DNA from: Pontederia crassipes
Taxonomy: Eukaryota; Streptophyta; Magnoliopsida; Commelinales; Pontederiaceae
Length of the DNA: 64,000 bases
Reading direction: 5' to 3'
Assembly (NCBI GenBank): GCA_030549335.1
Contig: CM060190.1
Coordinates: forward strand, 65,114,118 to 65,178,117
Under the pieces are notes generated by a model that made no database searches, was not told the DNA's origin, and saw only the letters and a list, made by a program, of their open reading frames with translations. The position numbers and the translations under genes are program-made. Position 1 is the first letter of the stretch; every line of letters starts with the position of its first letter. Positions 11,839-64,000 of this stretch are shown here, piece after piece.

Positions 11839-14800
11839 AATCTCCACCTTAATTTGAATCATCTTCAGAGAACATAAAACTATGCCACGCCGCCTCCAGT
11901 CCCACATCGGGATTATTACCAAGTATTGATGTTAAGCAAGTCCAAGCAGTGTTGGAACTTGCCATGATGAACAGATTTGGTGAACATATCAGCTGGATTA
12001 TCTTCAGTGCCAATCTTCTTCACCTTGATCATCTTCTCAGTGCGGATGAAGTGATATCTGACATCAATGTATTTGGTTCTTTCATGATGTACTTGATCCT
12101 TGACTAAACATATTGCACTCAGACTGTCACAGTGCATTATAGTCTGCTCCTGATGTAATCCGAGATCTCTAATTAAGCCTTTTAACCAGATGTCTTACTT
12201 TGCAGCTTCTGTCAGTGCCATGTATTCAGCCTCTGTGGTGGACAATGTAACTGATGATCGAAATGTAGCCTTCCAACTAATAACTGAACTGTCCAAAGTG
12301 AAGACATAACCTGTCATAAATCGTTTTCCATCAACATCTCCAGCATAATCTGAATCTGAGTACCCTGCAACCAAACACTCTTTATCACTTCTGTATATGA
12401 GGCCAATATCAAATGTCCCTCTCAGATATCGAAAAATTCGCTTCACTGCTTGTCAGTGCTCCTTTCCTGTATCGCTCATGAACCTGCTGAACTGCATGAG
12501 TAATATCTAATCTTGTGCAAACCATGGCATACATCAGACTTCCAACTGCACTAGCATATGGAACCCGAGACATGTACTCCTTTTCTGCTTCTGACTTTGG
12601 TGCGAAAGCAACATAAATATGAACATTTGCAGCTGATGGAGTATTCAAAGGTTTCTCTCATGATATTTCAAATCTGGATAAAATCTTCTCAATATAATTT
12701 TTCTGATATAAGAAGAGTTTACCCTGCGCGATCCCTTAGAATTTTCATCCCCAGAATCTTCTGTGCTGCACCAAGATCCTTCATGTCGAATTCTGCACTA
12801 AGGAACTTCTTCAAATTCTGTTATGTCTCTTGCAGCAATAAACATATCGTTGACATACAAGAGCAGATAGATGGTGGAGCCGTTCTTCACCTTCTTATGG
12901 TATACACAGCAATCATAGGGACTTCGACTGAATCCCTTACTGATCATGAAGCTATCGAACCTCTTGTACCATTGTCTGAGATATTGCTTCAAGCCATACA
13001 GAGATTTCTTCAGACTGCAAACTTGATTCTCCTTTCCTGAAATGGAGAATCCCTCTGGTTGGCTCATAAGAATATTTTCTTCAAGTTCTCAATGGAGGAA
13101 AGTAGTCTTTTACATCTAGTTGCTCGAGCCATAAATTCTGATGTGCTACAAGAGTAAGTAGCACCCTGATAAAAGTATGTCTGACAACATGTGAGAATAT
13201 CTCATTATAGTCCACACCTTCTTTCTGACTATAATCTTTAGCAACCAGTCGTGCTTTGTATCTCGTGCTTTCAACTCCTGGAATTCCTGCTTTTTTTTTT
13301 GAAGATCCATTTACGGCCAACAACCTTCCTACCTTTAGGCAACTTGACCAGCTCCAACGTCTGATTCTTGTGAAAAGATTCCATCTCCTCACCCATAGCA
13401 GCGATTCACTGTCCAAATTCGGCACATGTGATTGCATCCCTATAAGAGGACGGCTCCAGGGACTCCACCTCTTTAGCTACCTGTAGTGCATAAGCAATCA
13501 TGTCCTCGAAACCATATCATTTAGGAGGACCCACTTCTCTACGAGGACGTCTAGCAGCAATTAACTCCTCTTCAGGTTGCTCATCAGATTCTTCACCTTC
13601 TGGTTTTGCTTCTTGATGTGATCCTTCAGCATCATCCTCAGTTTGAGTGATTTAAACATCCACATGTTTATTGACACTCTCTTCATCCTCCACCTTCAAC
13701 TGAAGCATTGGTGCTTCATCAAAGGTTACACTTCTGCTGTGGATGACTTTGTGTTCTGAAGGAGACCAGATTCTGTAGCCCTTCACTCCTGCACCATATT
13801 CCATGAACACTCATTCTTTGACCCTTGGCTCCAACTTTCCTTCACCGACGTGATAGTATGCTGGACAATCAAAAACTTTCAGACAAGTATAATCAGCAGA
13901 ATTTTCTGATCATACCTCAGTTGGAGTCTTGAGATCAATCGCAGTCGCCGAACTTCGATTCACCAAGTAGCAAGCTGTGTTAACAGCTTCAGCCCAGAAT
14001 ATCCTATTCAGGCCATCGTTAGAGAGCATGCACCTTGTCCTCTCCAAAAGTGTCATGTTCATTCGTTCTGTAACTCCATTATGCTGTGGAGTATCCTTGA
14101 CTGTGCGATGCCTGGCAGTGCCTTCATCTTTGCAGAACTGATCGAATTCACTAGAACAGAATTTCAAACCATTGTCAGTGCAAAGACGTTTCACTTTCTT
14201 CGACGTCTGATTTTCCACCAGAACCTTCCACTGCTTGAAGGCCTTGAAGGACTCACTCTTGTGTTTCATCATGAATATCCAAGTCATCCTCGAGTAGTCA
14301 TCAATCACAGATAGGAAGGACCTCGCACCTTCTAATGATGAAACACGAGAGGGACCCCAATAATTACCGTGAATGTAGTCAAGTGTCGCCTTCGTCCTGT
14401 GCATTGCCTTGCCAAACTGAGACATTCGTTGTTTGCTGAATACGCAGTGCTTGCAGAAGTTGATTTCAGATATCTTCTTCTCTCTTAGAAGACCTCGTTT
14501 GCTGAGAATATTCATCACGTTCTGACTCATATGCCCAAGCCGCATGTGCCACAGCCTGGACCTATCTGATTCGGATGAACTAGTCACTGCAGTAACGTCA
14601 GAGACTGTCTTGTCTTGTAATACATACAAGGACTTTTGTCTGACTCCCTTCAGAACCATAGCATCACCTTTCATGACAATGAGAATGCCTCCAGCAGCAT
14701 TGATCTGACACCCTTTAGAGTCGAGGACTCCAAGTGATATCAAATTCTTTTTCAGTTGCGGAACATGACGGACATCTGTCAGCATCCTCACAAGATTGTC

Positions 14801-15859
14801 ATGAGTCATGATCTGCACAGAACCGATCCCAACTATCTGACATGTTGCATCGTTGCCCATGATGACGTTTCCACCATCAATCTTCTGATAAGTTGAGAAC
14901 CACTCTTTATTCGGAGTCATATGATAGGAACACCCCGAATCCAGAACCCAACTATCCGTCAGACATCCTTGATCAGAAGCAGTCAGAACCAAATCATCTT
15001 CGGAATTTTCTGTTTCATGTGCCACCGCAACGACATGGGCCTTCTTCTTTTTCGGACAGTCTTTCTTCCAATGACTTGGTTCCTTGCAGTAATTACAGAT
15101 GTCATTCGCAGTGATTTTCTTCTTCTTGGATTTGGATTTATTCGAATTCGAGGATTGTCCCTTCTCTGCGGTCGATATCAAACCCGTGGCCTGAGTCTCT
15201 GCAAAATTTCCAGATGCCCTATGCCGAAGTTCACGAGTATGTAGACTCGATCTTACTTCTTCCAGACTTATAATTTCCTTCCCGATAATCATAGACTGAA
15301 CGGAATTTTCATATGATGGAGGAAGCGAAACTAACAGAATTAGGGCAGCATCTTCATTCTCGATCTTAACATCGATATTTCTGAGTTCCATCAACAAAGA
15401 ATTTAACTGATCAAGATGTTCCTTCAGAGGGGTACCTTCCTGCATGCGGAGAAAGAACAGACGTTGCTTCAACAGCAAGTTGTTGGTGAGAGACTTCGTC
15501 ATATATAGATTCTCGAGTTTCAACCACAGACGAGCCGCCTTTTCTTCATCTGCGATCTCGATTATCACTTCATCCGCCAGACACAACAGAATCATCGAGT
15601 GCGCCTTCTCTTCCTGTGCCGCCAAAGTTGCGAGGTCGATATCATTTTCTTTGTCCTTCGAGTCTTCCTCCTTTGGTTTGTTCTTCGACACGTTTGAGAG
15701 CGGCGCCCAACCTCCTTGTTGCTTCAGAAGCGCCCGCATCTTGATCTGCCACAACCTGAAACTGTTCCTGTCGTTGAACTTCTCCACACTCACGTTGTGC
15801 GACGCCATCTCCCTGCTGATCGAGAATCGCTGACAAACCCTAAGGCTCTGAAACCAGTT

Positions 15860-16088
15860 TGTTACGAAAAGGGGAAGAGAGGGATCGCACGAAATACAGA
15901 AGAACGCGAAGAAGAAAAACGGCAACGGCTCTTTGTTATGGAATAATGATGATTACAAGGATGAGTCTCTGTCTAGACCCCTAGGGAGTTTATATAGACA
16001 TTCCCTTTAACAGATGATAGGAATTCTGCTGAAGCGCCTGACTATGTAGGGGGATCAATTGGGTTCAGATTCAAGGCATTATTAATAA
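15860..16088 (-). repeat. 5' LTR of the copia element
   Basis: Begins TGTTACG on the plus strand and ends near GCATTATTAA, the same borders as the solo LTR at 55.8 kb. It is followed immediately on the element side by the primer-binding site. Confidence 0.75.
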
Positions 16089-37760: not shown

Positions 37761-38404
37761 TCCTGGGTCCCCCTGAAGTTGGAAATCCTAAGTTTAAATC
37801 TCCATGGAACATCTTTTTCTCTCAAGGTGATAAAATTAATGATATAGTTCTTTCTATTGACTTAAATTTTTAGAAAAATTAATGAACACATCTAATTTCA
37901 CAAACAAGAACTTTTTCTATATAAGAAATTGACCAAAATCAACTTGATGTTTAACATGAATCTTACTCACTTGTTCTGACCTTATGAAGAGTAGTTTAAT
38001 TTTAGAGTTTGACTTGATCTCATAGAATTATTGTTGAGTTTCAATAAGGTTATTCATATATTTATGTTTTGGTTTATGTATGCTTATGTGCTTTTATAAC
38101 CTAAGGCTATTGATATATTACTAGTTGGACATGCACACATCTTGCAATTGCAGTTTATAATCACATTATTAATAAGAAAGTGTGAGGGACCTCGTTGAAT
38201 GTACATATTAAGCAAAATATATCATGTACTGATCAGTGATCACATTTGATTTATGTCACTACAAGAAAATCTTAAATTTCTGACTGATAAGCCTGATTTG
38301 CAATTTCCTACGAAATTTTTGATGACATAAAAAATTCTTTCAAAATATCGATGATAATTTATCGACTGTCTGGTCCCTCGGTAATTACCAACGGCTACGA
38401 TTGT

Positions 38405-39300
<896 letters not shown>

Positions 39301-39830
39301 TATTCAATATTTTATTATTTTAATTGTAGTAAAATTTAATATTTTATTTTTATATTTTCCGTCGGAACTAATTGATTGAATTGAAAATTGGAGTTGGCAC
39401 TTGATGAGATATCGGGATGACTATATCGGGATGGATTAAAGGAAGTTGTGGTGCAAACTTCCACTCATTAAGTGTCAATGAATAAGATAATGATTGTCAT
39501 CTTCTATTATTTAAGCATGAACTTATTGGACCATGGGTCATATTGGACAAAGTGTCATATTGTTGTTTGATGTTCATACTATCGATTGAAGATTTGTTTA
39601 AAGATGACAAGCATATAATTGGCGAGCCTAAAGAATGATAATGGGATTGAATCTAGATTAATGTTTTACCTAGTAATGACATTGGATTGGATCGAATTGT
39701 TACCGGATTTTGTTTATTGATCTCATCTTATTATTTTATGTAATGCTAGAGTAATGACTCATTTAGCAATATACTGGAATGTTATTAAAATTGATAGATT
39801 GTATGTCTTTATTGTTATTATTGCATATAG

Positions 39831-42800
39831 GCATTGCTATTGCATTAATAAATTTATTGTTAATAAGTGAAATTAAGTGCATTTATGAATGACATATGTC
39901 ATCCGAATTGTCATGACTTACATACTGGGCGTAAGCTCATGGGATGAATGTCTCCTGCACATATCTTGCAGGCGAATATGATTGAAGGTGTTAATAAATG
40001 AAAGACCACAAACGATGCTCATAACGAATGGTGCTTGCACATATCCACGGTTAAGTAAAAGTTAATTATTGTAATCCTTTAATTTAATTATTTAAGTTAT
40101 TAGTCTTCTGCTGTGTTATATCGTGTTCGAATCATCATTGCCTATTTATGTTTATAAGTAAGTTGCAAGATAATAAAGTTTTTGGTCCTGTGACAACTCC
40201 GTGATAGGTGCTTCCCGGGGCGTTACACCACGACTCAGATAGCTCTAGCTCTGGCCGCCCTCTTCCTCTCCCTCTCCCTCACTCACGATTTACGATTGGC
40301 TGACGGGAGGATCAGGTTGCGGGCGTCAGATCCATCACGAGGCGGCCAGAGCGACGAATCAAGGCTTGGATGGGCGGATCCATTGTGAGCGATCTGATCC
40401 ATGATCTGGCCTCGGGCGGTCGGGTCACCCACCAGGCGGTCTGATCTGGGCACGAGGCGACGGATTAGGCTCGGGCAATCCGGCGCGAGGCAGCTTAACC
40501 AGGCCTCGAGTGGCTGGATCCATCGCGAGGCGACCGAATCAGGCCTCGGGTGGCCGGATCCATCGTAAGGCGGCCGAATAAGGCGATGGGTGGCCAGATC
40601 CGTCACGAGGGGACCGGATTAGGCCCCGAACAGTTCCTTTGTTAAATAGGCATTGCTATTGCATTAATAAATTTATTGTTAATAAGTGAAATTAAGTGCA
40701 TTTATGGATGACATATGTCATCCGAATTGTCATGACTTACATACTGGGCGTAAGCTCATGGGATGAATGTCTCCTGCACATATCTTGCAGGCGAATATGA
40801 TTGAAGGTGTTAATAAATGAAAGACCACAAATGATGCTCATAACGAATGGTGCTTGCACATATCCACAGTTAAGTAAAAGTTAATTATTGTAATCCTTCA
40901 ATTTAATTATTTAAGTTATTAGTCTTCTGCTGTGTTATATCGTGTTCGAATCATCATTGCCTATTTATGTTTATAAGTAAGTTGCAAGATAATAAAGTTT
41001 TTGGTCATGTGACAACTCCGTGATAGGTGCTTCCCGGGGCGTTACACCACGACTCAGATAGCTCTAGCTCTGGCCGCCCTCTTCCTCTCCCTCTCCCTCA
41101 CTCACGATTTACGATTGGCTGACGGGAGGATCAGGTTGCGGGCGTCAGATCCATCACGAGGCGGCCAGAGCGACGAATCAAGGCTTGGATGGGCGGATCC
41201 ATTGTGAGCGATCTGATCCATGATCTGGCCTCAGACGGTCGGGTCACCCATGAGGCGGTCTGATCTGGGCACGAGGCGACGGATTAGGCTCGGGCAATCC
41301 GACGCGAGGCAGCTTGACCAGGCCTCGAGTGGCTGGATCCATCGCAAGGCGACCGAATCAGGCCTCGGGTGGCCGGATCCATCGTAAGGCAGCCGAATAA
41401 GGCGTTGGGTGGCCAGATCCGTCGCGAGGGGACCGGATTAGGCCCCGAACAGTTCCTTTGTTAAATAGGCATTGCTATTGCATTAATAAATTTATTGTTA
41501 ATAAGTGAAATTAAGTGCATTTATGGATGACATATGTCATCCGAATTGTCATGACTTACATACTGGGCGTAAGCTCATGGGATGAATGTCTCCTGCACAT
41601 ATCTTGCAGGCGAATATGATTGAAGGTGTTAATAAATGAAAGACCACAAACGATGCTCATAACGAATGGTGCTTGCACATATCCACGGTTAAGTAAAAGT
41701 TAATTATTGTAATCCTTCAATTTAATTATTTAAGTTATTAGTCTTCTGCTGTGTTATATCGTGTTCGAATCATCATTGCCTATTTATGTTTATAAGTAAG
41801 TTGCAAGATAATAAAATTTTTGGTCCTGTGACAACTCCGTGATAGGTGCTTCCCGGGGCGTTACACCACGACTCAGATAGCTCTAGCTCTGGCCGCCCTC
41901 TTCCTCTCCCTCTCCCTCACTCACGATTTACGATTGGCTGACGGGAGGATCAGGTTGCGGGCGTCAGATCCATCACGAGGCGGCCAGAGCGACGAATCAA
42001 GGCTTGGATGGGCGGATCCATTGTGAGGGATCTGATCCATGATCTGGCCTCGGGCGGTCGGGTCACCCACCAGGCGGTCTGATCTGGGCACGAGGCGACG
42101 GATTAGGCTCGGGCAATCCGGCGCGAGGCAGCTTGACCAGGCCTCGAGTGGCTGGATCCATCGCGAGGCGACCGAATCAGGCCTCGGGTGGCCGGATCCA
42201 TCGTAAGGCGGCCGAATAAGGCGATGGGTGGCCAGATCCGTCGCGAGGGGACCGGATTAGGCCCCGAACAGTTCCTTTGTTAAATAGGCATTGCTATTGC
42301 ATTAATAAATTTATTGTTAATAAGTGAAATTAAGTGCATTTATGGATGACATATGTCATCCGAATTGTCATGACTTACATACTGGGCGTAAGCTTATGGG
42401 ATGAATGTCTCCTGCACATATCTTGCAGGCGAATATGATTGAAGGTGTTAATAAATGAAAGACCACAAACGATGCTCATAACGAATGGTGCTTGCACATA
42501 TCCACGGTTAAGTAAAAGTTAATTATTGTAATCCTTCAATTTAATTATTTAAGTTATTAGTCTTCTGCTGTGTTATATCGTGTTCGAATCATCATTGCCT
42601 ATTTATGTTTATAAGTAAGTTGCAAGATAATAAAATTTTTGGTCCTGTGACAACTCCGTGATAGGTGCTTCCCGGGGCGTTACACCACGACTCAGATAGC
42701 TCTAGCTCTGGCCGCCCTCTTCCTCTCCCTCTCCCTCACTCACGATTTACGATTGGCTGACGGGAGGATCAGGTTGCGGGCGTCAGATCCATCACGAGGC

Positions 42801-43098
42801 GGCCAGAGCGACGAATCAAGGCTTGGATGGGCGGATCCATTGTGAGGGATCTGATCCATGATCTGGCCTCGGGCGGTCGGGTCACCCACCAGGCGGTCTG
42901 ATCTGGGCACGAGGCGACGGATTAGGCTCGGGCAATCCGGCGCGAGGCAGCTTGACCAGGCCTCGAGTGGCTGGATCCATCGCGAGGCGACCGAATCAGG
43001 CCTCGGGTGGCCGGATCCATCGTAAGGCGGCCGAATAAGGCGATGGGTGGCCAGATCCGTCACGAGGGGACCGGATTAGGCCCCGAACAGTTCCTTTG
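39831..43098. repeat. Tandem array of four 819-bp units inside the CACTA element
   Basis: Unit starts (GCATTGCTATTGCATTAATA) are at 39831, 40650, 41469 and 42288, an exact spacing of 819 bp each time. The fourth unit stops at 43098, a few bases short. Each unit has an AT-rich first half and a GC-rich second half. The GC-rich half is itself built of about 40-bp degenerate repeats on the theme AGGCCTCGGGTGGCCGGATC. Units differ by only a handful of substitutions. The 107-codon minus-strand frames in units 1 and 4 are closed in units 2 and 3 and look non-coding. A CCCGGGGCGTTACACC phrase resembles LTR ends, so the unit may include captured retroelement sequence. Confidence 0.93.
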
Positions 43099-43473
43099 AA
43101 ATTATCAATGGATATTGCATCTCGAGGCAGCAGATCAAACCATGACCGACCACGAGGTGGCGGATTAGGCTGTCAGGCAGTCAATTTTTTTATATTTTAA
43201 AAAAATCTTTGCGACAGACAAAGCCGTCAAAAAAGTAGATAACCGTCGGAAGTACATCAAAACTTTCGACGGTTAAAGCCATCGAAACTTTCCACGATTT
43301 AGACCGTCGAAACTTTCGACGGCCGCAACTATGGGAAGTTCCGATGGATATTTTGCCGTCAATCTTCTGACGTTTTCTTCTTGTCCGTCGGAAATGATTC
43401 GAGACACCCACTTTTCCAACGGATCGCTTTCGTCGAAAATTTCGTAAAAAACCTTCATTTTTTTGTAGTGTGT

Positions 43474-49070: not shown

Positions 49071-49507
49071 TAACGGGCGTTAAAGGAGGGACACAATGTC
49101 TCCCCTCTTTTTATTCATCAGATCAAGAATCAATGAATCAGATTCAAAGTCTTTAAATGGAAATGAATAAAATAAGATCCATAAATTTCTAATCCAATGG
49201 ATAAAAGCATAGGAGACACGGTGTCCCTCAGGAGACACGGTGTCCCTCCTTTAAATGGGGGACACCTTCATTTTTTTCTTTTTTCCTTTAATGGGCGTGT
49301 CCCTTCATTTTTTCCTTTTTTCCTTTAATGGGCGTGTCCCTCCTTTAAAGGAGTGTGTCCGTTTATCCGTTGGATTAGAAATTTATGGATCTTATTTTAT
49401 TCATTTCCATTTAAAGACTTTGAATCTGATTCATTGATTCTTGATCTGATGAATAAGAAGAGGGGAGACACTGTGTCCCTCCTTTAAAGGAGGGACACGC
49501 CCATTAA
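49071..49507. mobile_element. Fold-back MITE with nearly identical ~122-bp arms
   Basis: The arm 49084-49205 and the reverse complement of 49361-49482 or so differ at only three positions over about 122 bases. Both start AGGAGGGACACA and run through TCATCAGATCAAGAATCAAT to CCAATGGATAAA or its variant. Outside the arms, TTAACGGGCGT and TTAATGGGCGT flank the element. The centre holds further copies of the end text (GGAGACACGGTGTCCCTC twice in tandem; TTTAATGGGCGTGTCCC twice). No coding frame. The high arm identity indicates a young element or gene conversion. The superfamily is uncertain (TTAA-like edges suggest Tourist or another TA-rich target type). Confidence 0.85.
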
Positions 49508-58150: not shown

Positions 58151-61100
58151 TGTCCCGGGGGGCTTTTTCCGGGACACGTCGAGTTATCTTACTTCTATAT
58201 ATTTTCTCTTTTTCAACCAACTTTTGTACTTAGTTTTTTTTTCAAATGTGGTAGTGGCAGTTTTGTAATTCTGCACTTTAAAAAGTGTACCCCCTTGGCT
58301 TGTCTTCCACACCACACGTTGCATATAGGCCTCACGGGCTTGCGGTATAGTAAGAGGAGACCCACTAGTGCTCCCCCTAAGCTTTGTAATAATCCCTATT
58401 TTCTCAACAAAGATGTCAAGCTTTTCTAAATCTAGCACCGTGCCTCGAGCGTGGGGTGACAACCCACAAAAGAGCATCCCAAAGCGTCCCAAATAATCGA
58501 GCGTTACGCCGAGGTGCCCGTTTGTTCACAAACGTCTCCACTGAAGAAGCATCGCTCGGGATCGTGCATTCCAAAAACCGTGGCATATGAAAAGTGACAT
58601 AAGCAAGATTCCGCAAAGCGCTCAAAAGAGTTTGCCTAGACATTGGACACGTCTAGGCGCCGCACGGGTCGGTCGAGTGAAAAATGATCCCGTGACAAGT
58701 TGGTATCAGAACAACATTTCTGGGACCGCTCAAGTTGGCGTTCGGGGATCAAGGTGAAATGACGTCGAATTCGAAGATGACGAATGAACCCATCGCACCG
58801 GAGAAGGGCCGACAGGAGCGAGGGTGCGCTCGCTCGAAGGACGCCATGTCCATCTTCAAGCAACGCCTCGGCCAATTGGACGTGGGAGAAATGCAAGATC
58901 AACTCGCAACGCACGAGCGGGAGTTGGAGAAGACCGTGGATCTCGCAACGGTGCGGGACAAAATGGCACCGTTGTATACGGCTCGAGTCCATGGAGGCGT
59001 CAATCATGGACATGCGGGAGATCTTGGATAATGATCTCTCAAACATGAGGTTCGAGATGGAGCAAGAGTTCAAGACCATGCGGGAAGAGCTCAAGCGACG
59101 CTATGGAGATGGGCGGCGTCCCGAGGCACCCGCCCAGCATGAGGCATCCGCTGGGGACTGTGCATTCCAAAAATTATGGCATACGAAAAGTGGCATAAGC
59201 AAGCTTCCACAAAGCGTTCAAAAGTGTTTGCCTAGACATTGGACACGTCTAGGCGCCGCACGGGTCGGTCGAGTGAAAAATGATCCCGTGACAAGTTGGT
59301 ATCAGAACAACGTTTCTGGGACCGCTCAAATTGGCGTTCGGGGATCAAGGTGAAATGACGTCGAATTCGAAGATGACGAATGAACCCGTCGCACCAGAGA
59401 AGGGCCGCCAGGAGTGAGGGTGCGCCCGTTCGAAGGATGTCATGTCCGCCTTCAAGCAACACCTCGGCCAATTTCAATTGGACGTGGGCGAAATGCAAGA
59501 TCAACTCGCAACACACGAGCGGGAGTTGGAGAAGATCGTGGATCTCGTAATGGTGCGAGACGAAATGGCGCCGTTGTATACACGACTCGAGTCCATGGAA
59601 GCGTCAATCATGGACATGCAGGAGACCTTGGATAATGGTCTCTCAAACATGAGGTTCGAGATGGAGCAAGAGTTCAAGACCATGCGGGAAGAGCTCAAGC
59701 GACGCTATGGAGATGGGTGACGTCCCGAGACACCCGCCCCGCATGAGGCAAGAATCGATGTGCCAAAGCCGATGCCCTACAAAGGCGAGCGATCGGCAAA
59801 GGAGATCAACGACTTCCTGTGGAACGTCCGAAGGTACATGGAGGTCTTGAATGTGACGTCTGAAGCGAGGATGGTGAAGATCACATCCTTCTACTTACAA
59901 GATGCGACGAGTCTGTGGTGACGGTGTCATTGTGATGATGTGGAGCATGGCATCATTGATCCCATTCAGAGTGAGACGACTTCAAGAGGCAGCTTATCAA
60001 CTATTTCTGCCCCGCCAAGTCGGGATTGAAGGCCAAGATTGCGTTGTTCAACATTTGTCAGAAGGACACGTTAAAGGAATACGTGAAAGAATTCACCGAG
60101 CTCTGCCTACAGAATTTCCAAGTGGACGAAGACACATTGCTTGCGGTCTTCGTGAAGGGTCTGAAGCCATGAGCTAGGACGGAGTTGGAGCGACGAGACT
60201 ACCCCAACCTTCGCTCGCTAGTCGCCACTGCTGAGTCGCTCGTGGAGTACGCCAAAGCGAGCGCTCCACCACCAAAACCCTCGAGCAAGGGCAATGATGG
60301 GGGAGAGAAGTCCAAGTTGCAAGGAGGCAAGCCGCACTATCAAGACAAAGGCAAGGAACACCAAGACAAGAAGCCCAATAATGAAATATTTATGAGGGAC
60401 GAAAAGTCGCCAAAGCCTTGCTACATTTGCAAGGGTCCACATTGGACGAGCGATTGTCCGCAGAAGGCGACAGTCAACACAATGTATTACCCCGACGAGA
60501 AGGAGGAGGCGTATCTTAATTCCATGCACGTCCTCAGCGCTATCAACGCCTCAAAGGGTCCTTCATCGGCTGCTCGACTTTATGCGAATATCGAGTTGAA
60601 CGGGTAAGTCTTCAACGCCCTCATCGACACGGGAGCATTGGAATTGTTCGTGTCAGAAGTGGCCGCCAAGAAGCTGAAGCTGCCAGTACAGAGGACTAAC
60701 GTCACGTTCAAGATGGTGAACATGAAGTCTATCTCGATCACAGAAATTTCTCCTGGAGTGAAGGTTCGTATCGGTAAGTGATCGGGAAGCTTCGACGTGA
60801 TGGTGGCACCAGTGGACGACTACGAAGTGGTGGCAGACATATCTTTTCTGCAACACATTGCTGCATGTGTCATTCCACTTGTCAACTCGATGGTCATCTT
60901 CGACCTCAAGGGACCTTACAACATTTCTGTGAGGTCAGGCGGAGATCTCAAATAGAAGACCCTCTCCGCCATGCAAGTGGCGAAGGAGTTGCATAAACAG
61001 GAGCACACCTTCATGACGACCGTTATCTTGGAAGGTCCGGGGCCCTCCACTCCAACACCTCCCAAAGTTCTTGAAACCCTTAAGGACTTTGCGAATGTCA

Positions 61101-61873
61101 TGCCCCCGGAACTCCCAAAATGATTGCCGCCGAAGCTTGAAGTGAACCATGTCATCGACTTGGTCCCAGGATCAAAAGCTCCACATGGAGTCCCCTATCG
61201 GCTCGCCCCTCCGGAACTCGCAGAACTCCGTAAGTAACTCACCAAACTATTGGATGCAGGATACGTTCGGCCTTCGAAGTCTCCATATGGTACCCCGATT
61301 CTCTTTCAAAAGAAGCATGACGATTCCCTCTGGATGTGCATCGACTACCGGGCGCTCAACAAGCATACGGTGAAAAACAAGTATCCCATCCCCTTGGTGG
61401 CGGACTTGTTCCACCAACTTGGCAGTGCAAGATGGTTTACCAAGTTAGATTTTCGTTCGGGCTATTGGCAAGTCCAGAACGCGAAAGATGATGTGCAGAA
61501 GATGACGTGCGTCACAAGATACGGCTCCTATGAGTTTCTCGTGATGCCTTTCAGCCTCACCAACGCTTCGGCGACCTTCTGCACCCTCATGAACAAGGTA
61601 TTGCAACCATTTCTTAACAGGTTCGTGGTTGTCAACCTCGACGACATTATGATCTATAGCCGGATCTTGGAGGGGCATATCGAGCACATTCGGCAAGTGT
61701 TCGAGGTGTTGCGGCAGAACGAGCTCTACGTCAAGCGGGAGAAGTGTGCCTTCGCTCAACCAGAAGTGCACTTCATGGGTCATGTCGTCGGAAGTGGAAA
61801 GCTGAAGATGGATGGCACAAAGATTCGTGCCATCGTAGAGTGGGAGCCGCCCAAGCGGGTTCCCGATGATTAC
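58151..61873 (+). mobile_element. Ty3/gypsy retrotransposon, broken and interrupted
   Basis: A fossil gypsy element on the plus strand. The 5' LTR is read as 58151-58697 (TGTCCCGG to GTGACA), followed by the primer site TGGTATCAGA. The part from the LTR end into early gag is present twice in tandem (about 58564-59159 and 59160-59755). Gag with coiled-coil-like helices follows, then a CX2CX4HX4C-type zinc knuckle near 60420, an aspartic protease region near 60630, and reverse transcriptase (61250-61870) with SPYGTPILF, CIDYRALNKHTVKNKYPIP and a DD active-site region. The polymerase resembles the Galadriel/Monkey chromovirus group. Several breaks are present. Its 3' part is missing at the junction with the next element. 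Confidence 0.85.
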
Positions 61874-61879
61874 TTTTCT

Positions 61880-64000
61880 ATAGAGTAGAAAAGTTTGGCA
61901 AGTATACCGATCGCACAAGTAGTAAAAAGATATCGATCCCACGAGGACTTTTATCTCTCACTCTTACCAGATGACAATTCTTGTAGAGAAATGAATTTAG
62001 AAGATAATCAGAAGAAAATAAGGAGCAAATCCAAGAAAAGAGAAATACCAATTCGAAGAAATGTTAATTTTACTAAGCATTCCTCCACTGTTAATCGAGT
62101 ACAAAAATTACATCTGATGGTAATAAAATAAATTAGGACTCTAACCAGATGTCCTATCTGTTGTATCAGTTAAATATTTGAAGAAAGTTTAACCAAATCG
62201 TTCTCCAAATATTTAAGGATTAAAATATAAATGATTGATTCATCTCAAAGACTTCTCAATCGAGTAAGTCTAAGTCCACACCCCACTAAATCTCACAGAG
62301 TAGATAGGGGAGAGATACGAGATGTTGAAGAATAAATTTGATTCAAACAGAACACATATTCAGAAAATAATATTTCATCAAAATAACAGTGGAGTTCAAT
62401 AATATAAAACCAACAAAGGAAGATTAGTCCATTGCTGAAGAATAAAACGTTATAAAGCTGAAATTCAGACTACAAAAGAGGAGCAAGAAAATAAAACTCT
62501 AAAATGTGACTCTAGACAAAGTAGCCACAAGACTCTCTAAATGGATGATTTTCTTCTCTGCTGCTGCCCCTTTTGGTGTGGAAGTGGACGTCCTTTTATA
62601 ATCGCTTATCGGTGTCAAAATGGACCGTGTAATCATGACACGGGCCATTTTCTCTTTGTTACAACACGGTTCGCGTCGACTCGAAACAGACCGTTTCAAT
62701 CAGCACGTGACAAAAATTCCCCCGGCCGTGTTGGTTTGACGTGAGATGCTGAAAAACGGTCCGTGTCAAAGTAACACGGTTCATTTTTCTTCTCCTGCAT
62801 AGAAAGCCCCACAGTAAATCAAAAGAATAATATTCTATAAGAAAAACACGATAATTGATGCATGATCATTCAATTTTCAATTTCTTAATGTGTTAAAATA
62901 TATAAAATTGAGCATGCATCACAATCCCCAAGTTTAAATATTTACTTGTCCTCAAGTAAGATTCAAGATAAGATATGATCTTCATCAAATTACTAATACT
63001 TTTCTCTTCTCATTGTTTAAATTTTTTTCATTTATCGCTAGAGTACCTCTTCTCTTTTCCAATAATTCCTGCTTCAAAGAATATATGATGCTAAGACCTT
63101 TTTAAATCAATGAACAATTAATCTCAACTAAAACCAATAAGTCTAAAGAATAAATATTAAATGAGCTTTTTGTTTTCTCATTTTTTTTCGTTTCCTCCAT
63201 CTTGCTCAAAGTGGTTAATGTAACAGGTTTTCGATCGACGGATCCCAGACCAGTTAGTCTTAGGTCGTCAGGCAAGAATCCCCAACGGATCTAATGGCCC
63301 GAACACACTAAGGTGCCAGAGATAAACATTTTATTCAACTTCTTTTTAGAAGTTATATTATTATTATTTTTTCTTTTTCTTTTTTTTTCGCTCAATATAT
63401 TTATTCAATAGAAAGACTGCTTTAGAAGAGACTAACAGATAAAGATCATCAAAGCAAAATAATTCGAATCAGCTCCAACTTCTTATCCAAAAACCCAATA
63501 CTAAGGCGATATTTGAAAAAAAAACTTTTGATAAAGAATTTCATAAGCAAAGAGATGTTCTTGAAATCGTCGATTAAGATCAAGAAAATATGGAAAGTTA
63601 TGAAAAGTGATGCGCGACATATTAGATAATTATCTTGATGCAAAAAAACACGAAATGCAGGCGCAACCCCCGAACTTGAAAGAAACACTGTCTCAGTGTT
63701 CAACTAGTCGGACGAGTTTGCGTACATCAAAATAGCAAAAGGACATAACAAAAGATCAGAAGTGAAAGACACAACCCTGCTAATCAAACTCAGGTGGTGG
63801 AGGTGGAAAGGTGTTATCCACTGGATCTGGAGGAATCTGGTGGTGTCGAACTATCTGACGAACATCTCGATCGATCCGAGTGACATCCTCTACAAGGCGA
63901 TGAAGTAATGCTCGATCCTCCTGGGCTGCAACCTGCATACGATTCAACTGATCCATGACTAATAAATGATACTGTGTCTGATCAGTTCGTATAGCATCAA
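61880..64000 (-). mobile_element. Second LTR element inserted in the gypsy copy, runs off the right edge
   Basis: After about 61873 polymerase similarity stops abruptly. The text TGGCAAGTATACCGATCGCA then TATCGATCCCACGAGGAC is the kind of edge seen in LTRs of plant gypsy elements. The phrase CCCCAAGTTTAAATATTTAC followed by TTGTCCTCAAGT, also common in them, follows near 62925-62957. The last about 220 bases are open on the minus strand (see next entry). The far LTR is outside the window, so family and borders are tentative. Confidence 0.5.
63780..64000 (-). other. 3' end of an open frame of the nested element
   Basis: An open minus-strand frame enters from the right edge and stops at 63780-63782. 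It is rich in Q, D, R and H (MDQLNRMQVAAQEDRALLHR) and ends in a proline run before EFD. The helical, charged composition and its place inside the nested element suggest an element-encoded gag or accessory protein. No family is assigned. Confidence 0.4.

Follow-up and report, generated by a model that had tools for sequence, protein, structure and literature searches.

How a first tandem duplication becomes an array, and whether an array carried by a transposon can seed satellite DNA, are questions raised by a locus of Pontederia crassipes at which four 819-bp units lie head to tail inside a CACTA element. A passage of a 2025 review (PMC12628747) describes the origin of composite satellite monomers as an open question. 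The locus lies in a 64,000-nucleotide stretch of DNA (assembly GCA_030549335.1, contig CM060190.1, positions 65,114,118 to 65,178,117), referred to below as the window. The original prediction regarded the array as a plausible seed for satellite DNA spread by transposition.

Structure of the array and its host element

The observation of a four-unit 819-bp array in a CACTA element is confirmed. The array spans 39827-43098 and comprises four head-to-tail units, each exactly 819 bp with zero indels, that start at 39827, 40646, 41465 and 42284. The predicted period without indels was thus exact in 3/3 steps, but the predicted unit starts lay 4 bp inside the true left edge (39827). Identical runs of at least 40 bases at a lag of 819 were confined to the array in a scan of the 64-kb window, thereby excluding a chance origin of the period. 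The features of the locus are listed below.

38257..43470, + strand (nominal, because no coding frame orients the element): non-autonomous CACTA element holding the array, 5,214 bp, delimited by terminal inverted repeats (TIRs) and a target-site duplication (TSD)
38257..39368, + strand: CACTA left arm, with AT-rich repeats of about 200 bp and a 131-bp ATA run; relatives dispersed
39369..40227, + strand: 3′ part of a retrotransposon long terminal repeat (LTR), 859 bp, left end cut, right end intact (...GGGGCGTTACA)
39827..40645, + strand: unit 1, made up of the LTR 3′ end (39827-40227), a native CACTA GC-rich segment (40228-40641) and filler TTAA (40642-40645)
40646..41464, + strand: unit 2, the most divergent, with 11 private differences
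41465..42283, + strand: unit 3, with 2 differences from unit 4
42284..43098, + strand: unit 4, without the terminal TTAA
40642..40645, + strand: putative filler TTAA, 4 bp, at the junction of units 1 and 2; also at 41461-41464 and 42280-42283
43099..43470, + strand: CACTA right side, consisting of a short GC-rich remnant, subterminal CCGTCG/CGACGG-type motifs and the right TIR

Over the 815 sites compared, 18 were variable across the four units, and the pairwise substitutions numbered 15 (units 1-2), 6 (1-3), 6 (1-4), 13 (2-3), 15 (2-4) and 2 (3-4), in agreement with the few substitutions that had been predicted. Each unit joins an AT-rich half to a GC-rich half, as predicted, but the sub-repeats of about 40 bp said to make up the latter account for only part of it: TRF found 3.2 copies at 75-79%, which together span some 130 bp of a GC half of 418 bp. 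Across the whole GC half, the identity at a 40-bp lag was 0.44, the top value among lags 5-199. The array also contains a 111-codon minus-strand frame; a coding role for it was rejected, as its unit-4 copy, the one copy scanned, had no Pfam match and the frame is cut to 68 codons in unit 2.

Placement of the array inside one CACTA element is supported by the element's ends, CACTACAAGAAAAT and CACTACAAAAAAAT, of which 13/14 terminal bases match, and by the duplication TGT on both sides (38254-38256 and 43471-43473); the element thus has both the CACTA-start TIRs and the 3-bp TSD of the group. Six overlapping CGTCGG/CGACGG-type words, taken as the measure of subterminal motifs, occurred 11 times in the 372-bp right side, 6 times in the 1,112-bp left arm, 7 times in the 3,272-bp array, and 1 and 4 times in the 5-kb flanks, so that subterminal direct and inverted repeats of the CACTA kind are present, although enrichment in the left arm is modest. 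The longest frame in the element has 111 codons, and no transposase of its own (Transposase_21) was found, the three element frames scanned having no Pfam match; the element was therefore classified as non-autonomous. Elsewhere in the P. crassipes genome, matches to Transposase_21 were abundant (150/150 scored were above the cut-off, from 3,921 first-look candidates), and the same search gave matches in 0/14 control genomes. Four of the genomic loci (C7:39682750, C2:40204455, C18:2354410 and C2:28922062) carry Transposase_21 in open frames of 926-927 codons with no stops inside the match and are perhaps recently active CACTA elements.

The unit joins a retrotransposon LTR to native CACTA sequence

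The AT-rich half belongs to the LTR piece at 39369-40227, whose left boundary was set by BLAST and is uncertain by a few bp. Its portion 39369-39826 is single copy, and the portion 39827-40227 lies within unit 1. Five distinct dispersed copies, two of them the paired LTRs of one element (L010), align with the piece over 847-859 query bases at 74-76% identity. In the aligned dispersed copies, the AT half and its left flank form one continuous LTR stretch; in copy L008, for example, the sequence reads uninterrupted from ...GCATATAG into GCATTGC.... In L008 and L010, the LTR is followed by words resembling a primer-binding site, ATATCAGAGC and GGTATCAGAGC. A pair of LTRs, each at least 2.57 kb long and 86.6% identical to one another, encloses an internal region in L010; GGTATCAGAGC, a putative tRNA-Met primer-binding site, comes after the first of them, and the frames listed in L010 were all short (99-111 codons). 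Since L010 has these paired stretches around an internal region together with the primer-binding-site-like word, as expected of an LTR retrotransposon, 39369-40227 was identified as the 3′ part of an LTR.

A search of the 1.13-Gb assembly with the unit, in which the best 40 of 175 candidates were scored and which therefore gives a lower bound for the LTR copy number, returned 44 matches, namely the 4 units and 40 others. All 40 of the latter stop at or before query position 401, and the LTR ends at 397. The possibility that the AT half is native CACTA sequence was rejected in view of these dispersed LTR matches and of the relatives described below.

The GC-rich half showed a different distribution. 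In full length it was found only in the four units (own assembly, 26/26 candidates scored), and the remaining 23 matches were pieces of 45-189 bp with 69-92% identity. Left-arm relatives occurred at many dispersed loci (own assembly; best 40 of 142 candidates scored). We compared relatives with the parts of the element at 38 loci, corresponding to 25 distinct places, which are a sample of a CACTA family with many more members. The beginning of the GC segment (GC head) was present in 9/25 places and the LTR in 0/25. Among 12 larger regions, the left arm was followed by the GC head in 7 (L044-L049 and L051), and the right part was also present in 6 of these 7, the exception being L047. Within the stretch fetched, L050, L053 and L054 had the left arm only. 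In L052 the left arm was accompanied by a short piece of the GC segment and by the right part, and in L043 left arms occurred with short pieces of the GC segment and of the right part and with a second array. In 7/7 regions with left arm and GC head, the end of the left-arm match and the GC head were separated by 227-542 bp of native spacer containing a pyrimidine-rich stretch; in the window, the LTR piece occupies the place of this spacer. The GC half is thus assigned to the CACTA family, because relatives show the left arm and then the GC head, with the LTR in none of them.

Since the AT half is LTR and the GC half native CACTA, the 819-bp unit is a hybrid spanning the junction between a foreign LTR and its CACTA host. 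This make-up, foreign LTR plus native CACTA sequence, was missed in the original prediction. The array is accordingly a composite tandem repeat, with a monomer drawn from parts of two transposable elements (TEs) and arranged head to tail.

A single junction shared by all units

All three unit-unit junctions read ...CCTTTG-TTAA-ATAGGC..., and TTAA is lacking both in the left reference (GCAT-ATAGG) and in the right reference (CCTTTG-AAATT). A 26-base junction pattern, with up to 3 mismatches allowed, gave 3 matches in the 1.13-Gb assembly, all at the array, and the reversed control pattern gave 0. Because all junctions share TTAA and the junction is found nowhere else, these data point to what would be one founding end-joining event followed by homology-driven growth. 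None of the four 8-base words spanning TTAA occurred within about 300 bp of either breakpoint. No relative matched the right reference at 43099-43120, and apart from the locus itself no match begins before 43121; TTAA could therefore be lost ancestral sequence instead of filler. It would be ancestral if a related CACTA copy had a single LTR-GC segment ending ...CCTTTGTTAA.

Order and age of growth

The predicted sharing of two variants by units 3 and 4 is correct, the sites being 352 (G/A) and 564 (C/G). The outgroup LTR copies are mixed at site 352, so that its polarity is ambiguous, and do not cover site 564. Site 254, one of the three private differences of unit 1, is T in this unit, as in 5/5 distinct LTR copies aligned, and C in units 2-4; the outgroup thus makes the state of unit 1 ancestral. 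Stepwise growth, as originally proposed, fits sites 254, 352 and 564, which group the units by position, but conflicts with site 779, where units 1 and 4 have A and units 2 and 3 have G. Purely stepwise growth would thus need gene conversion or repeat mutation in addition. As a whole, the variants support array growth that was probably young, tandem and mostly stepwise.

Unit 2 holds 11/15 private differences (binomial p ~1e-4 for equal rates), an excess that a simple clock does not explain. With the majority state taken as reference, 8/11 of them are C>T or G>A. Unit 3 has zero private variants and is for this reason the least well separated copy. At an assumed substitution rate of 1.3e-8 per site per year, which makes the age a rough scale only, the differences between units would correspond to about 0.1-0.7 million years.

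Proposed origin of the array

We propose that a non-autonomous CACTA element acquired an LTR retrotransposon, by insertion or by capture, beside its native GC-rich segment, and that a deletion then took the left part of the LTR and the CACTA spacer that is kept in relatives. A later head-to-tail duplication, from inside the LTR to inside the GC segment, would have arisen through illegitimate end joining that left TTAA behind. The copies would then have misaligned by homology, and unequal crossing over or gene conversion would have raised two units to four, most likely by addition toward the right. What is inferred here is the sequence in which LTR insertion and deletion took place, the pathway of end joining and the steps of recombination, and we consider this scenario as a whole, from LTR nesting through deletion and end-joining duplication to homology-driven growth, to be quite probable.

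Confinement to one locus and a second array

Spread of satellite DNA by transposition was not borne out. The whole-genome search with one 819-bp unit (1.13-Gb assembly; best 40 of 175 candidates scored) found no further full unit in CACTA copies or elsewhere, and since full units and the unit-unit junction (at most 3 mismatches) occur at this one locus only, such spread is not supported. Travel of the whole unit with CACTA copies was likewise rejected, as the LTR was found in 0/38 loci (25 places). The sequence appears to have been amplified in place, with no seeding elsewhere in the searches. With four copies at one locus and no further full unit or junction, the array lacks the long arrays and the many copies or several loci of a satellite, and a genome-wide satellite was rejected for this assembly.

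Evenly spaced left-arm matches on contig C12 led to a second array, which, having been found through the spacing of hits, is one further case and not a rate.

L043:1474-7976 (contig C12, 10979973-10986473): second four-unit array, recognized from left-arm matches

The first three units measure 1651, 1646 and 1642 bp, and the last, in which the final piece is missing, about 1,560 bp; the units differ from one another by 1.5-3.4% substitutions. Each carries a left arm of the family and, after it, the left end of another CACTA element, one of high copy number, that inserted there; the last copy of this nested element is complete (L043 7521-9255, TSD CCT). Full units were found only at that locus, and the nested left end is dispersed (best 40 of 3,672 candidates). 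Units 1-3 end in a 121-bp piece, 113 bp of which are 95.6% like L043:1186-1297, to the left of the array. On a speculative reading, to which we give little weight, large tandem arrays would start recurrently at the junctions of elements that are nested within the GC-rich domain of this CACTA family, and the two four-unit arrays, each with a hybrid unit across a nested-element boundary, would be independent newborn composite satellites at one and the same stage.

Alternative explanations

A first alternative, a mechanism described for maize elements, is abortive gap repair following excision of the CACTA element: slippage while the element was copied back into the break would have produced the duplication, so that transposase activity would have driven the array. 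The abundance of Transposase_21 matches in the genome (150/150 scored, 3,921 first-look candidates) is in favor of this explanation, as is the 121-bp junction piece at L043, whose resemblance to left-flank sequence (113 bp, 95.6%) is of the kind that template switching leaves. However, the locus bears no excision-specific sign, and a scar of this kind would also be left by ordinary break repair. The filler has just 4 bp, and the four 8-base spanning words are absent within about 300 bp of the breakpoints. We therefore regard gap repair as unlikely, while giving it the most credence among the alternatives.

The junctions, identical in all copies, would also fit a model in which the 819-bp segment formed an extrachromosomal circle with a single closing junction, was multiplied by rolling-circle amplification and was then reinserted through homology. 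Yet the units differ by 0.2-1.8% and share variants in groups, which indicates steps over time, not one burst, and makes such a circle improbable. An assembly artefact or haplotype mosaic is very improbable given the 18 sites at which the copies differ, which speak against mere duplication during assembly, the clean junctions and the 78-Mb length of the contig. Least plausible is that the CACTA element captured a satellite already present genome-wide, a case for which a passage of PMC8978399 offers a parallel in an array within CACTA elements of Chenopodium quinoa: no other full unit or junction was found in the assembly, and a dispersed LTR and the host CACTA family account for the two halves. 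End-joining duplication across the LTR-CACTA junction, followed by growth through homology, thus remains the preferred explanation.

Relation to known tandem repeats

TE-derived tandem repeats, CACTA arrays and composite monomers are already known, and the present array is an early, unusually legible case. As in maize CRM1TR/CRM4TR (PMC3648361), for which illegitimate recombination was proposed for the start and gene conversion for the growth, the monomer has its start within an LTR and its end in neighboring sequence; the maize repeats, however, derive from one centromeric retrotransposon (LTR and UTR), whereas here an LTR and a CACTA element are joined, in four copies at one locus. The C. 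quinoa array (PMC8978399) likewise lies within a CACTA element, but comprises 32.5 copies of 171 bp in several elements, in contrast to the 819-bp hybrid units found once here. Jozin-derived CficCl-61-40 (PMC7320549) is also a tandem array in or from a CACTA element, with tnp2-derived monomers of about 40 bp that belong to the major satellite family, unlike the 819-bp hybrid units found once here. Ogre 3′UTR arrays of Lathyrus sativus (PMC7004042) are similarly short and TE-borne, and are a satellite source there, but they are carried in dispersed element copies, whereas the array here was found once. Tandem LTR-retrotransposon structures in plants have been described as well (PMC11899658).

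According to the review passage on TE "graveyards" (PMC12628747), tandem copying across nested TE remnants would give rise to monomers containing pieces of several TEs; those composites involve short stretches, whereas here the parents, the junction and insertion-free relatives are readable. Both parent elements, the shared junction, the grouping of units at base level and relatives without the insertion can be seen at this locus, which is therefore suited to testing how an initial duplication develops into an array. The locus is a clear and young example of a possible start of satellite DNA, and not of the spread of such arrays.

Other features of the window

Reverse-transcriptase sequences, of the copia type among others, are also present in the window, as is ribosomal protein S17. 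On the minus strand, 13910-15952 is a copia-type gag and integrase frame of 680 codons with no stop. Two direct copies of about 600 bp, 91.5% alike, lie at 58546-59750, with reverse-transcriptase sequence nearby at 61238-61885. An inverted repeat at 49080-49487, with 126-bp arms that are 98% complementary and 156 bp between them, is perhaps a small foldback element.
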